NCBI RefSeq assembly: GCF_010907035.1 | Contig: NZ_QUMK01000022.1 | Span: 1 to 64,000, forward strand | Direction: 5' to 3' | Source of the DNA: Rhodopseudomonas sp. BR0M22 | GTDB taxonomy: Bacteria > Pseudomonadota > Alphaproteobacteria > Rhizobiales > Xanthobacteraceae | Length of the DNA: 64,000 nucleotides | Part shown: in pieces, positions 28,054 through 34,426 of the stretch | How positions within the stretch are numbered: position 1 is the first letter of the stretch | Layout of the letters: each line of letters starts with the position of its first letter | Notes under the pieces: model-generated | The model's database searches: none | Told to the model about the DNA's origin: nothing | What the model saw: only the letters and a program-made list of their open reading frames with translations | Translations under genes and position numbers: made by a program

Positions 28054-28078
28054 GGAACGATCCTCCGACCTGTCCGTT
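28054..28078 (+). promoter_or_regulatory. EcfG-type promoter of csbD
   Basis: GGAAC (28054-28058), 16 bases, CGTT (28075-28078): an exact match to the general stress sigma factor consensus. The predicted start near 28085 leaves a short leader with GGAGG before the csbD ATG. Confidence 0.82.
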
Positions 28079-28107: not shown

Positions 28108-28308
28108 ATGGATTGGAATCGCGTTGAAGGTAACTGGAAGCAGTTCAAGGGCAACGTCAAAGAGAAGTGGGGCAAGCTCACCGACGACGATCTCAACGTC
28201 ATCGAAGGCCGCCGTGACCAGCTCGAAGGCAAGCTGCAGGAACGCTACGGCTACGCTAAGGATCAGGTCCGCAAGGACGTCGACGACTGGTTCTCGAAAC
28301 TGAAGTAA
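28108..28308 (+). CDS. CsbD-family stress protein
   Basis: A 66-residue hydrophilic helical protein with the CsbD signature: MDWNRVEGNWKQFKGNVKEK, WGKLTDDDLNVIEGRRDQLE, ERYGYAKDQVRKDVDDW. CsbD-like proteins are general-stress-induced in Bacillus (SigB) and in alphaproteobacteria (EcfG), with no known biochemical activity. A GGAGG ribosome site and a perfect EcfG promoter precede it, and a terminator follows, so it is a stand-alone stress gene. Confidence 0.95.
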   Translation: MDWNRVEGNWKQFKGNVKEKWGKLTDDDLNVIEGRRDQLEGKLQERYGYAKDQVRKDVDDWFSKLK

Positions 28309-30428: not shown

Positions 30429-30454
30429 AACGTCGCCACGTACCAAACCGTTCC
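30429..30454 (-). promoter_or_regulatory. EcfG-type promoter of the L,D-transpeptidase
   Basis: On the minus strand GGAAC (30454-30450), 17 bases, CGTT (30432-30429). Predicted start near 30422, about 45 bases before the ATG. Confidence 0.78.
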
Positions 30455-30488: not shown

Positions 30489-30513
30489 GGAACTTTCAGC
30501 GACATCACCCGTT
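30489..30513 (+). promoter_or_regulatory. EcfG-type promoter of the AI-2E-family permease
   Basis: GGAAC (30489-30493), 16 bases, CGTT (30510-30513): an exact consensus match 64 bases before the GTG start, with the -35 element 34 bases from the divergent transpeptidase promoter. Confidence 0.8.
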
Positions 30514-31864: not shown

Positions 31865-32254
31865 TCAGGCCACGCAACGGCCGGGCTGGAGCTGCTTGGC
31901 GACTTCGGTGAGAACGCTCACCACGGGCTCGCAAGCCACGATCGGCTTGGGCGCGAGCATCGGGCGTTTGGTATCTGGCAGACGCAGCGCGCCGCTGATC
32001 TGCTCCTCCGGAATTCGAACCAGCACCGACTGGCCGATCAAATTCACCGCAAACGTCTGTCCTGGCTGGGTCGCCAGCGGCGTGACAGCCCGGTCGGCTT
32101 TGCTCGAACGATTGACATCCTGGACCGCGGTCGCGATCGATGCCTGCCGAATGAGGTTGGCGCGGCCAAGGTCTTCGCCGACTGCCAGTTGCGCTACGCC
32201 GAGCGTCCCGGTGATAGCAAGGGCGCCCAAAATTCCCCGCACGATGTGTGACAT
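31865..32254 (-). CDS. Exported protein of unknown function
   Basis: A 129-residue protein beginning MSHIVRGILGALAITGTLGV, a signal peptide. The mature part (NRSSKADRAVTPLATQPGQT, FAVNLIGQSVLVRIPEEQIS) has two Cys residues, one in PIVACEPVV and one in LQPGRCVA, that could pair. I recognise no family. An upstream in-frame extension is rejected because it would bury the signal peptide. The ribosome site is weak (AAGATAACC). Confidence 0.72.
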   Translation of the reverse strand: MSHIVRGILGALAITGTLGVAQLAVGEDLGRANLIRQASIATAVQDVNRSSKADRAVTPLATQPGQTFAVNLIGQSVLVRIPEEQISGALRLPDTKRPMLAPKPIVACEPVVSVLTEVAKQLQPGRCVA

Positions 32255-32417: not shown

Positions 32418-32442
32418 GGAACATTCCGATCCCAGCCGGGTT
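32418..32442 (+). promoter_or_regulatory. EcfG-type promoter of a candidate small RNA
   Basis: GGAAC (32418-32422), 16 bases, GGTT (32439-32442), three of four -10 bases matching CGTT. No reading frame with a ribosome site follows, but a strong terminator does. Confidence 0.62.
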
Positions 32443-32449
32443 TGTCCCG

Positions 32450-32533
32450 CGCTGGTCGAGTCCCCTCCCCCGATTTCAAGACCGGCAAGACAGAGCGCCG
32501 CTGTGTGATGCCAGCGGCGCTCTGTCTGTTTTC
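32450..32533 (+). ncRNA. Candidate general-stress small RNA (GsrN-like)
   Basis: Predicted transcript of about 84 nt from an EcfG-type promoter to a terminator with a perfect 16-bp stem. Before the stem it has a single-stranded C-rich stretch (GTCCCCTCCCCCG at 32459-32471) able to pair with Shine-Dalgarno sequences. Caulobacter GsrN, controlled by the same class of sigma factor, has a similar C-rich target-binding loop. No open frame with a ribosome site is present. The assignment is inference from promoter, terminator, size and location beside phyR; sequence homology to GsrN was not tested. Confidence 0.55.
32488..32533 (+). terminator. Strong intrinsic terminator of the candidate small RNA
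   Basis: AGACAGAGCGCCGCTG (32488-32503) pairs perfectly with 32512-32527 around an 8-base loop, followed by GTTTTC. It cannot belong to the nearest plus-strand gene, which ends more than 800 bases upstream. Confidence 0.8.
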
Positions 32534-32576
32534 GGGGAGCCTAAACTTCCAATCGGTTGGCGACATCCATCGGCCA

Positions 32577-32616
32577 CAAAATGAAAGCGCCGCCCAGGCT
32601 CACCCCGGACGGCGCT
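32577..32616 (-). terminator. Terminator of phyR
   Basis: AGCGCCG / CGGCGCT arms (32586-32592 and 32610-32616) about 25 bases past the phyR stop, with TTTCATTTTG following on the minus strand. Confidence 0.7.
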
Positions 32617-32639: not shown

Positions 32640-33446
32640 TCAGGATGCGACGGCGCTGGGCTTGCGATTGCGCGAATTGCGCTGGAAGAACAAGGCTTGG
32701 CTCGCGACCGCCGAGACCATCGCCGGCTGGAACGGCTTGGAGATCAGGAAGGCTGGCTCCGGCCGCTCGCCGGTAAGGAAGCGCTCAGGATAAGCGGTAA
32801 TGAACACCACCGGCACTTCGAAGGTCCGCAACAATTCGTTAACCGCGTCGAGACCCGAGCTGCCGTCGGCGAGCTGAATATCGGCCAAAATCAGGCCGGG
32901 CTTCTTGGTCTTTGCCAGCGCGATCGCGTCGGCATGCGTGCGCGCGACGCCGATGACATTATGACCCAGCCCTTTGACCAGGCTCTCGATATCCATCGCG
33001 ATGAAGGTCTCGTCCTCGATAATCAGGACGTCGGTGGCGATATCCTCGGCCATCTCGCGACCCGCGGTATCGACGAGCTGCCGGACCTCGACGACGTCGA
33101 CCTGAAGCACGAATGCGACTTCCTCCTCCGAGAAGCCTTCCAGCGAAAGCAGCAAGAAGGCCTGCCGCGGCAGCGGCGTGATCGCCGACAGCCGGCGCTC
33201 GGTCGGCATCGGCAACGTCGTCACATCGGTATCGTCGTTCAACGCCACCGAATTCCAGATCTGTGTGAACAGACGAAACAGACCTGCCCGGGGGCCGTGT
33301 CGCTCGTCGAGAAGGGCGGGATCCTGAAGCAGCGCCTCCAGCATAGCGCCCACATAGGCGTCACCGGAGGCCTGGCTTCCGGTCAGGGCGCGCGCATAGC
33401 GGCGCAACAAGGGCAAATGCTCGGCAACAACCTGTGATCTCGACAT
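32640..33446 (-). CDS. phyR: PhyR, response regulator with anti-anti-sigma domain
   Basis: A 268-residue master switch of the alphaproteobacterial general stress response. Residues 1-130 are a sigma-factor-like domain (EHLPLLRRYARALTGSQ, DVTTLPMPTERRLSAITPLP, RQAFLLLSLEGFSEEEVAFVL). Residues about 140-262 are a receiver (TDVLIIEDETFIAMDIESLV, phospho-acceptor Asp in GLILADIQLADGSSG, VVFITAYPERFL, the Lys in FLISKPF). On phosphorylation it sequesters NepR and frees EcfG. It is divergent from nepR-ecfG and has its own EcfG-type promoter. The ATG at 33446 matches the family N-terminus; ATG 33464 is possible. Confidence 0.97.
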   Translation of the reverse strand: MSRSQVVAEHLPLLRRYARALTGSQASGDAYVGAMLEALLQDPALLDERHGPRAGLFRLFTQIWNSVALNDDTDVTTLPMPTERRLSAITPLPRQAFLLLSLEGFSEEEVAFVLQVDVVEVRQLVDTAGREMAEDIATDVLIIEDETFIAMDIESLVKGLGHNVIGVARTHADAIALAKTKKPGLILADIQLADGSSGLDAVNELLRTFEVPVVFITAYPERFLTGERPEPAFLISKPFQPAMVSAVASQALFFQRNSRNRKPSAVAS

Positions 33447-33508
33447 CCCCACTCCATCAGTCATCTGGGCCGACGCCTGAGGCGGGCCTGTACCTTTGCG
33501 AGGTCAAC

Positions 33509-33533
33509 TACGCCCGAGCCGAGCAAAAGTTCC
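33509..33533 (-). promoter_or_regulatory. EcfG-type promoter of phyR
   Basis: On the minus strand GGAAC (33533-33529), 16 bases, CGTA (33512-33509). It sits 10 bases from the divergent nepR promoter -35. Confidence 0.65.
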
Positions 33534-33543
33534 ATTGCCTGCG

Positions 33544-33568
33544 GGAACTTTCAAGCCGGGACCGCATT
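33544..33568 (+). promoter_or_regulatory. EcfG-type promoter of nepR-ecfG
   Basis: GGAAC (33544-33548), 16 bases, CATT (33565-33568), three of four -10 bases matching. Positive autoregulation of nepR-ecfG by EcfG is known in this group. Confidence 0.68.
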
Positions 33569-33649
33569 AGGCTCCGGTAAACGGCGGCAGATCAAGGAAA
33601 ACCCTCGAAGTTCAGGGGACTTGACCATGGGGAACACATTGGATCAGTC

Positions 33650-33877
33650 ATGCAAGAATTCAAGGCTCAAACCATGAAGAAGTCAGCTCCAGGCTCCAAG
33701 GGAGGTCTCAACGCGGAAATCCAGGCTCGGATCGGGCATCAACTGCGTGCGATGTACGACGACGTCGTTCGCCAGGGCGTCCCCGATCGGTTCGCAGAAC
33801 TGATCAAGAAGCTGGATGATCCTCAGCAAGCGGCCGAAGCCGCGAGCGCCACGAGTACAACCGAGGGGAGGGACTAA
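33650..33877 (+). CDS. nepR: NepR anti-sigma factor
   Basis: A 75-residue protein with the NepR core: GLNAEIQARIGHQLRAMYDD followed by VVRQGVPDRFAELIKKLDDP. NepR holds EcfG inactive until phosphorylated PhyR binds it. N- and C-termini are disordered, as usual. The gene lies three bases before ecfG and downstream of an EcfG-type promoter. ATG 33674 is an alternative start; the conserved core is unaffected. Confidence 0.95.
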   Translation: MQEFKAQTMKKSAPGSKGGLNAEIQARIGHQLRAMYDDVVRQGVPDRFAELIKKLDDPQQAAEAASATSTTEGRD

Positions 33878-33880
33878 TTC

Positions 33881-34426
33881 ATGCCTCTCACCGATAACCT
33901 TCGAGACGACATTCTCGCCGCCGTGCCGAGCCTGCGCGCGTTCGCGATCTCGCTGAGCGGCAATGCCGACCGCGCCGACGACCTGGTTCAGGAGACCCTG
34001 TTGCGCGCGCTAGCCAACATCGACTCGTTTCAACCGGGCTCCAACTTGCCGGCTTGGTTGTTCACGATTCTGCGCAATCTGTTCCGCTCGGACTATCGCA
34101 AGCGCCGCCGCGAAGTCGAGGATGCCGACGGCAGCTATGCCAAAACGCTGAAGTCGCAGCCGGGACAGACCGCTCACCTGGAGTTCGAGGAATTCCGGAC
34201 GGCCCTGGACAAGCTCCCGCAAGATCAACGGGAAGCACTGATTTTGGTCGGCGCCTCGGGCTTCTCTTACGAAGATGCCGCCGCGATCTGCGGATGCGCG
34301 GTGGGCACGATCAAAAGCCGCGTCAACCGCGCCCGGTCCAAACTCAGCGCGCTGCTCTATGTCGAAGGCGCCGAGGACTTCGGCCCGGACGACACCGTGC
34401 GCGCGGTGATCGGCAGTAACGGCTAG
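33881..34426 (+). CDS. ecfG: EcfG general stress sigma factor
   Basis: A 181-residue ECF sigma factor of the EcfG class (ECF15). Region 2 spans residues about 10-80 (LRAFAISLSGNADRADDLVQ, then ETLLRALANIDSF, NLPAWLFTILRNLFRSDYRK). Region 4 spans residues about 105-165 (ALDKLPQDQREALILVGASG, FSYEDAAAICGCAVGTIKSR). It recognises GGAAC-N16/17-CGTT promoters, several of which are in this window. Co-transcribed with nepR and divergent from phyR, the standard arrangement in Bradyrhizobium relatives. Confidence 0.97.
   Translation: MPLTDNLRDDILAAVPSLRAFAISLSGNADRADDLVQETLLRALANIDSFQPGSNLPAWLFTILRNLFRSDYRKRRREVEDADGSYAKTLKSQPGQTAHLEFEEFRTALDKLPQDQREALILVGASGFSYEDAAAICGCAVGTIKSRVNRARSKLSALLYVEGAEDFGPDDTVRAVIGSNG

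Follow-up and report, generated by a model that had tools for sequence, protein, structure and literature searches.

A conserved small RNA family beside phyR in Rhodopseudomonas, very probably driven by EcfG, and its possible pairing with the nepR-ecfG leader

Introduction

The general stress response of Alphaproteobacteria is known to work by partner switching among the proteins PhyR, NepR and EcfG. Does the locus encoding this switch also carry an RNA regulator under the control of its own sigma factor? We addressed this question in a 64,000-nucleotide stretch of DNA from Rhodopseudomonas sp. BR0M22, here called the window, in which a sequence-only reading had placed an unannotated small RNA gene beside phyR. 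If real, an RNA that shares both the locus and the sigma factor of the switch would give the stress response a post-transcriptional arm in Rhodopseudomonas, Bradyrhizobium and relatives, some of which are root-nodule bacteria.

A characterised precedent is GsrN of Caulobacter crescentus, whose synthesis depends on sigma-T; it targets the katG leader via a C-rich loop, undergoes processing and is affected by Hfq (Tien et al. 2018, PMC5869019). According to the sections of that paper considered here, a GsrN homologue was predicted in R. palustris and B. diazoefficiens (Fig. 9A), in both cases only from closeness to the stress locus and the presence of an EcfG site. The RNA is therefore not a first sighting. 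Through a covariance model, a promoter alignment and a predicted duplex, the brief 2018 prediction becomes a defined gene whose proposed target is named and open to test: the new point is that its loop is predicted to fit the nepR-ecfG leader.

Results and discussion

The promoter proposed by the sequence-only reading can be read directly in the window (Table 1), with GGAAC at 32418-32422 and GGTT at 32439-32442 on either side of a 16-nt spacer. The predicted 84-nt RNA has a fold of -47.6 kcal/mol (z -6.9; 0/200 shuffles equal), and its short hairpin GCUGGUC...GACCGGC contains GAGUCCCCUCCCCCG. The C-rich stretch said to be single-stranded is the loop of this hairpin. The terminator stem is perfect over 16 bp (32488-32503 with 32512-32527), closes an 8-nt loop and, as had been described, precedes only a short T run (GTTTTC, 32528-32533); a simple terminator scan missed this hairpin, since it requires 5 T within 8 bases. 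There are no Rfam 15 matches in the window above the gathering threshold, and the three sub-threshold Rfam matches in 18 loci all lie off the small RNA. The gene is present in one copy in its own genome, where a covariance model matches it over 32445-32535 with 73.6 bits. Compared with the near family this copy is slightly aberrant (CCCCUCCCCC and UGUGAUGC): the apical loop of hairpin 2 reads UGUGAUGC instead of the UGGUGAUGC of most near relatives, the UG of the common CCCCCUGCCCC loop is missing, and the covariance model score is the third lowest among 16 genus members.

Table 1 Features of the stress locus in the window
Feature	Position	Strand	Basis or remark
Small conserved gene, head-to-head with the small RNA	31865..32254	-	kept in relatives
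Sigma-EcfG-type promoter GGAAC-N16-GGTT	32418..32442	+	sequence; layout kept in family members
Predicted small RNA, about 85 nt	32449..32533	+	start inferred from promoter, end from terminator
Hairpin 1, GCUGGUC / GACCGGC enclosing the C-rich loop GAGUCCCCUCCCCCGAUUUCAA	32451..32486	+	pairing across relatives
Leader-complementary segment UGGUCGAGUCCCCU, loop region	32453..32466	+	14 contiguous pairs
Hairpin 2, 16-bp intrinsic terminator and short T run	32488..32533	+	compensatory changes
Terminator of phyR itself, outside the small RNA	32586..32616	-	terminator scan
phyR, convergent with the small RNA	32640..33464	-	NF006623 1.2e-110
Proposed target AGGGGACUUGACCA, nepR-ecfG leader	33614..33627	+	22 nt upstream of the nepR AUG at 33650
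nepR, anti-sigma factor	33650..33877	+	Pfam NepR 1e-15
ecfG, general stress sigma factor	33881..34426	+	sigma-70 ECF family; named ecfG from its position next to nepR and phyR

A blastn search recovered the RNA in 13 of the 16 sampled genus members, with the own genome included, and in 7 more of the 296 genomes; two of these 7 (L017, L021) turned out on inspection to be coding-sequence false positives. Covariance model R1, built from 21 sequences, detected it in 102 of 296 sampled family genomes, with E 0.004 for the weakest matches and the weak ones inspected in part. These matches cover 13 of 47 genera, include all 16 sampled genus members and occur once per genome except for two in G138. 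The second G138 match (L142 5161-5237, L298), which lies 1.5 kb downstream of the intact gene, is a promoterless copy of the terminator hairpin with its loop kept and the C-rich hairpin absent. The promoter, the C-rich loop and the terminator stem are all kept within the genus and also in further genera of the bacterial family, as the sequence-only reading, which had named this conservation as a way of checking its proposal, would have it.

More diverged homologues lie downstream of phyR in additional genera. To find them, PhyR was sought in 24 family genomes and the DNA following phyR was examined in 22 loci (L261-L282); G014 and G007 (L283, L284) gave response-regulator matches only and were left out. 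On the basis of promoter, a CCGGCC...C-rich...GGCCGG hairpin and terminator, we recognised a homologue in 11 of the 22 loci (L262, L264, L267, L268, L269, L270, L272, L275, L276, L277, L278), seven of them new and four (L267, L268, L269, L272) from genomes with an earlier weak covariance model match. Downstream of phyR, no homologue was recognised in 10 of the 22, among which L265 and L266 are incomplete and L279-L282 contain only distant phyR relatives (46-48% identity). L261 (G019) resembles a decayed copy, with promoter and hairpin remnants and the C-rich loop gone. Model R2, from whose training the diverged members were excluded, correctly located nine of the 11 in 123 kb, with E from 6e-6 to 3.5e-3; four of the nine were already known from the R1 search. 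The remaining two, L278 and L277, were recovered by R3, and members left out of R3 (L262, L267, L269, L278, L277) were found at the right place with E 2e-7 to 8e-3.

The promoter is conserved together with the RNA. GGAAC-N16/17-NGT[T/C], ending 2-5 nt before the model start, is present in 77 of 85 distinct upstream regions (from 99 collected family matches), compared to 271 of 19,800 random 76-nt windows of the same loci (1.4%). Seven of the other eight regions have GGAAC in place with another -10, and one belongs to the promoterless partial copy in G138. We rejected the motif alone as genome-wide evidence: GGAAC-N15..17-CGTT, a pattern that does not fit the GGTT form of the window itself, gave 92 matches against 119 for the reversed control and is not enriched. 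The weight of the promoter thus derives from its conservation at a fixed place, not from a genome-wide motif count, and points to a small RNA that is very probably EcfG-driven.

Compensatory changes support the fold. Alignment A3 (58 sequences, 54 distinct), which was fitted to the covariance model and is hence biased towards the fold, has 99.6% of cells paired and changes on both sides in 11 of 21 pairs. Such changes fill 116 cells compared to 31.8 in shuffles, the covariation score is 0.411 versus 0.230 (0/500), and none of 500 shuffles is as high by any measure; sliding destroys the fold, leaving at most 55% paired. An earlier MAFFT alignment of 21 sequences had both-side changes in 7 of 21 pairs. 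Helix 1 is paired in 99.5% of cells over the 54 distinct sequences, with both-side changes in one of its seven pairs and one-side changes only in the other six; helix 2 has both-side changes in 10 of 14 modelled pairs. Near-family members hardly vary in their loops, which read CCCCC(C)UGCCCC (hairpin 1) and UGGUGAUGC (hairpin 2), although the closing pairs of hairpin 2 switch; this suggests that both loops are used. More diverged members retain only the C-richness of loop 1. The apical loop of the terminator hairpin (window 32504-32511), UG(G)UGAUGC, is nearly invariant in the near family, and its GGUGAU is complementary to AUCACC near the 3' end of 16S rRNA.

Might the segment be translated after all, given that five mechanical ORFs (50-86 aa) overlap it? 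Relatives in A3 differ by loop indels of 1-2 nt, hence no reading frame is kept, and the stems change in a compensatory manner; a short translated ORF instead of a non-coding RNA is extremely improbable, and the claim that the segment lacks a credible reading frame holds.

The position of the gene proved informative as well. The RNA was detected in 53 of 80 named phyR loci surveyed and runs opposite to phyR in all 53, in line with the convergence first noticed in the window. Its distance to phyR ranges from 72 to 2723 nt. In 52 of the 53, a divergent small gene lies head-to-head with it at 136-395 bp; because the phyR distance varies so widely, this gene is the more constant neighbour and a better landmark for the small RNA than phyR. 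The window representative encodes a product of about 129 aa with a signal peptide (by eye) and has no Pfam or NCBIfam match at E 0.001. In the 27 loci without the RNA the divergent gene is missing too (within 3000 bp past phyR in 24, within 364-1209 bp in three). As both are missing together, they have probably moved out of range and were not lost. L094, one of the 27, has a partial covariance model match of 23.3 bits.

Two further explanations bear on this arrangement. One holds that the segment is only a terminator or a spacer between convergent genes that ends phyR or read-through transcription and yields no stable RNA. A strong hairpin between convergent units would fit, as would the promoterless hairpin copy in G138. 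However, phyR possesses a terminator of its own. Moreover, the hairpin is conserved together with a promoter and a C-rich hairpin, neither of any use to a terminator, and this holds even with phyR up to 2.7 kb away; we consider this explanation very unlikely. The other, in which the RNA would regulate phyR in antisense by way of overlapping 3' ends, gains some appeal from the invariable convergence. Given the position of the phyR terminator, however, the two transcripts need not overlap (the predicted terminators end at 32533 and 32586, respectively), and the variable distance to phyR likewise speaks against it, making it highly improbable. The observation made by the sequence-only reading is confirmed, well above chance, and its interpretation is supported, with corrections as to priority and the pairing partner.

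Beyond phyR lie nepR and ecfG, divergent from it. The closest named relatives in PhyR likewise place the window in Rhodopseudomonas. The inverted pair AAAGTTCC...GGAACTTT between phyR and nepR (window 33526-33568) forms divergent EcfG-type -35 elements, and phyR and nepR-ecfG consequently look autoregulated.

How far does the RNA family reach? Covariance searches of 397 plus 297 genomes of the order and 241 genomes of the class returned no convincing member outside the bacterial family. In the order genomes, R2 gave 11 matches outside the family at E 0.05 or less. Nine of these (L161-L169; G568 and G610 were left out) lack GGAAC within 60 nt upstream, as do 13 loci L285-L297 (L288 equals L164, and L297 is a family genome); the only one of L161-L169 at a phyR, L164, lies on the same strand just behind it and resembles a phyR terminator. 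In the 241 class genomes, R2 clearly found the own genome and two others just under E 0.01, both without promoter. We treat the weak matches outside the family as chance terminator look-alikes. A class scan for an EcfG motif, a C run of at least 5 and a terminator, with criteria set after candidates had been seen, was positive in 3 of 31 nepR regions (L234, L237, L241; regions taken from 60 listed NepR matches), compared to a mean of 0.07 over 29 permuted motifs. This result is consistent with a published statement that small RNAs under EcfG control are widespread in the class. A looser reading of the class nepR regions, which carries no statistic, adds L230, L235, L236 and L254. In bacterial families elsewhere in the class, L230, L235, L234, L236, L254 and L241 each present, close to a stress locus, a candidate C-rich RNA driven by EcfG; these candidates seem to belong to different sequence families. 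The layout recurs in L237, which comes from a different family within the order, but R3 gives only E 1.4 there. L289 (G458) resembles the RNA in the shape of its C-rich-loop hairpin and terminator but lacks an EcfG promoter, and its 3-kb locus contains no phyR, nepR or ecfG match.

The likeness to GsrN drawn by the sequence-only reading is borne out by the described features of GsrN (PMC5869019, in the sections considered): both RNAs have a sigma-EcfG/sigma-T promoter directly upstream (near-consensus here), an exposed C-rich loop in the 5' part and an intrinsic terminator at the 3' end. GsrN-like RNAs are about 100 nt long and in most relatives lie near the phyR-nepR-ecfG locus, as does the window RNA. 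Unlike what those sections describe for GsrN, the near family of the window RNA also conserves the loop of the terminator hairpin, UG(G)UGAUGC, and no pairing with a katG G-tract was seen. In 12 of the 13 genus members with katG (L322 was left out), the katG leaders share no G-tract site like that of Caulobacter. Their best contiguous helices, calculated without shuffle control, range from -10.6 to -15.7 kcal/mol and lie at scattered places; three leaders have a 6-bp GGCAGG site, and in the own genome CCGAUUUC fits over 8 bp. As no G-tract site is shared by these 12 leaders, katG is unsupported as main target in the genus. The window RNA is of GsrN type in design; since the katG feature was not found and the likeness rests on described features, we withhold the label of GsrN orthologue.

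Sharing genus, position and promoter with the homologue predicted for R. palustris, the window RNA is very probably that gene, for which the text of PMC5869019, as far as considered, gives no coordinates, sequence or structure. Within the open-licence PMC literature, the parts considered treat an RNA of this kind in PMC5869019 only, not in PMC4842269, PMC5082802 or PMC8103513; those of PMC4842269 mention PhyR and EcfG only in a reference title. The BjsR and BjrC RNAs are likewise intergenic small RNAs of the same bacterial family. In the available descriptions the BjsR RNAs differ from the window RNA in having RpoD or RpoN promoters or none, and the phyR-side locus is not mentioned for BjsR or BjrC.

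But, what would the C-rich loop pair with? The sequence-only reading had suggested ribosome-binding sites. A pairing candidate was indeed found; the notion of a generic site did not stand, as the best partner found is the nepR-ecfG leader. The 14 possible contiguous pairs, one of them G-U, rank first over both strands of 10 kb. Measuring pairing by contiguous helices and by 22-nt-window duplexes, we found 5 of 2000 shuffled window leaders as good by the former and 2 of 60 by the latter, looped, measure. Searched through the 5.3-Mb genome with G-U allowed, the 14-nt pattern, chosen after the pairing had been seen, occurs with zero mismatches only in the RNA gene and the nepR-ecfG leader. No site has a single mismatch and 21 have two; for the reversed control, 35 sites lie within two. 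We rejected an upstream ORF (AUG 33627) as explanation for the conservation of the leader: its AUG is ACG in L004 and L007, where the pairing site is kept.

Within the genus, the best 22-nt-window duplex falls on the same leader site in 14 of 15 members (15 of 16 sampled). At most 3 of 60 shuffles were as good in only 6 of the 15, z lies above -1.5 in 8, and in L013 and L024 a third of the shuffled leaders match the contiguous helix. The lengths of C run and G run agree in four of the 15 loci (window 4/4, L004 5/5, L007 4/4, L010 6/6). Across 69 loci, cognate RNA-leader pairs beat swapped ones in permutations that ignore relatedness (2 of 20,000 as good; 310/20,000 for the genus and 380/20,000 for 26 representatives). 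By the same comparison the cognate fit is unsupported in 27 Bradyrhizobium-like loci (4969/20,000) and 24 loci of other genera (15,378/20,000); the mean duplex z amounts to +0.48 over 10 Bradyrhizobium-like and +0.15 over 18 other loci. Outside the genus, the leader fit is convincing in one other locus, L141 (G069), where a quite different loop fits a different leader with 12 contiguous pairs (z -4.1; 0/60 and 4/2000 shuffles). The nepR-ecfG leader is thus a credible predicted target for the genus Rhodopseudomonas and unproven elsewhere; that it is a true target of the small RNA we put somewhat below an even chance, judging from complementarity.

As we infer from the observed family, promoter, structure, position and complementarity, the RNA would act in trans as a regulator of the alphaproteobacterial general stress response. 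Stress would free sigma-EcfG, the RNA would be transcribed from its GGAAC-N16-GGTT promoter and terminated by hairpin 2, and the C-rich loop presented by hairpin 1 would pair with G-rich mRNA leaders. An EcfG-driven RNA acting by base-pairing is, on this sequence evidence, likely. The best-supported partner in the genus, the nepR-ecfG leader, would imply feedback on the anti-sigma/sigma operon, with a reduced nepR-ecfG output as the weakly favoured sign of the effect. Hence, the small RNA may feed back on the general stress response via the mRNA of its own sigma and anti-sigma factors. Specifically, an EcfG-made RNA would pair over 12-14 nt with the nepR-ecfG leader in Rhodopseudomonas and reset the ratio or amount of sigma and anti-sigma factor, a feedback that arose or, in altered sequence, persisted in the genus of L141; we propose this tentatively, as a plausible possibility short of being probable. 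In Caulobacter, nepR-sigT mRNA co-purified with GsrN, which matches the predicted fit of the window RNA loop to the nepR-ecfG leader; in contrast to the feedback that this 14-bp fit would suggest, the sections considered report that no GsrN feedback on sigma-T activity was seen (PMC5869019).

Alternatively, a GsrN-like RNA may act mainly on other G-rich leaders, with the nepR-ecfG fit being a genus-level accident or a minor partner. The fit fades outside the genus while the C-rich loop is kept in genera whose nepR leader does not fit, and better combined targets may exist; katG leaders offer short fits of 6-8 bp. On the other hand, the nepR leader site is, apart from the RNA gene, unique within one mismatch of the 14-nt pattern, and the 12 katG leaders share no site of the Caulobacter kind. 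We rate this alternative at close to, and just under, an even chance.

Apart from the small RNA, additional EcfG-type motifs were noted in the window. ORF 28108-28308 (+), presumably CsbD-like, has one at 28054; in L262, L263, L269, L270 and L277 a similar ORF, preceded by an EcfG motif of its own, is found downstream of phyR, and in four of these five it is located between the small RNA and phyR. Two divergent EcfG-type motifs, at 30429-30454 (-) and 30489-30513 (+), are flanked by a minus-strand ORF and an AI-2E family transporter.
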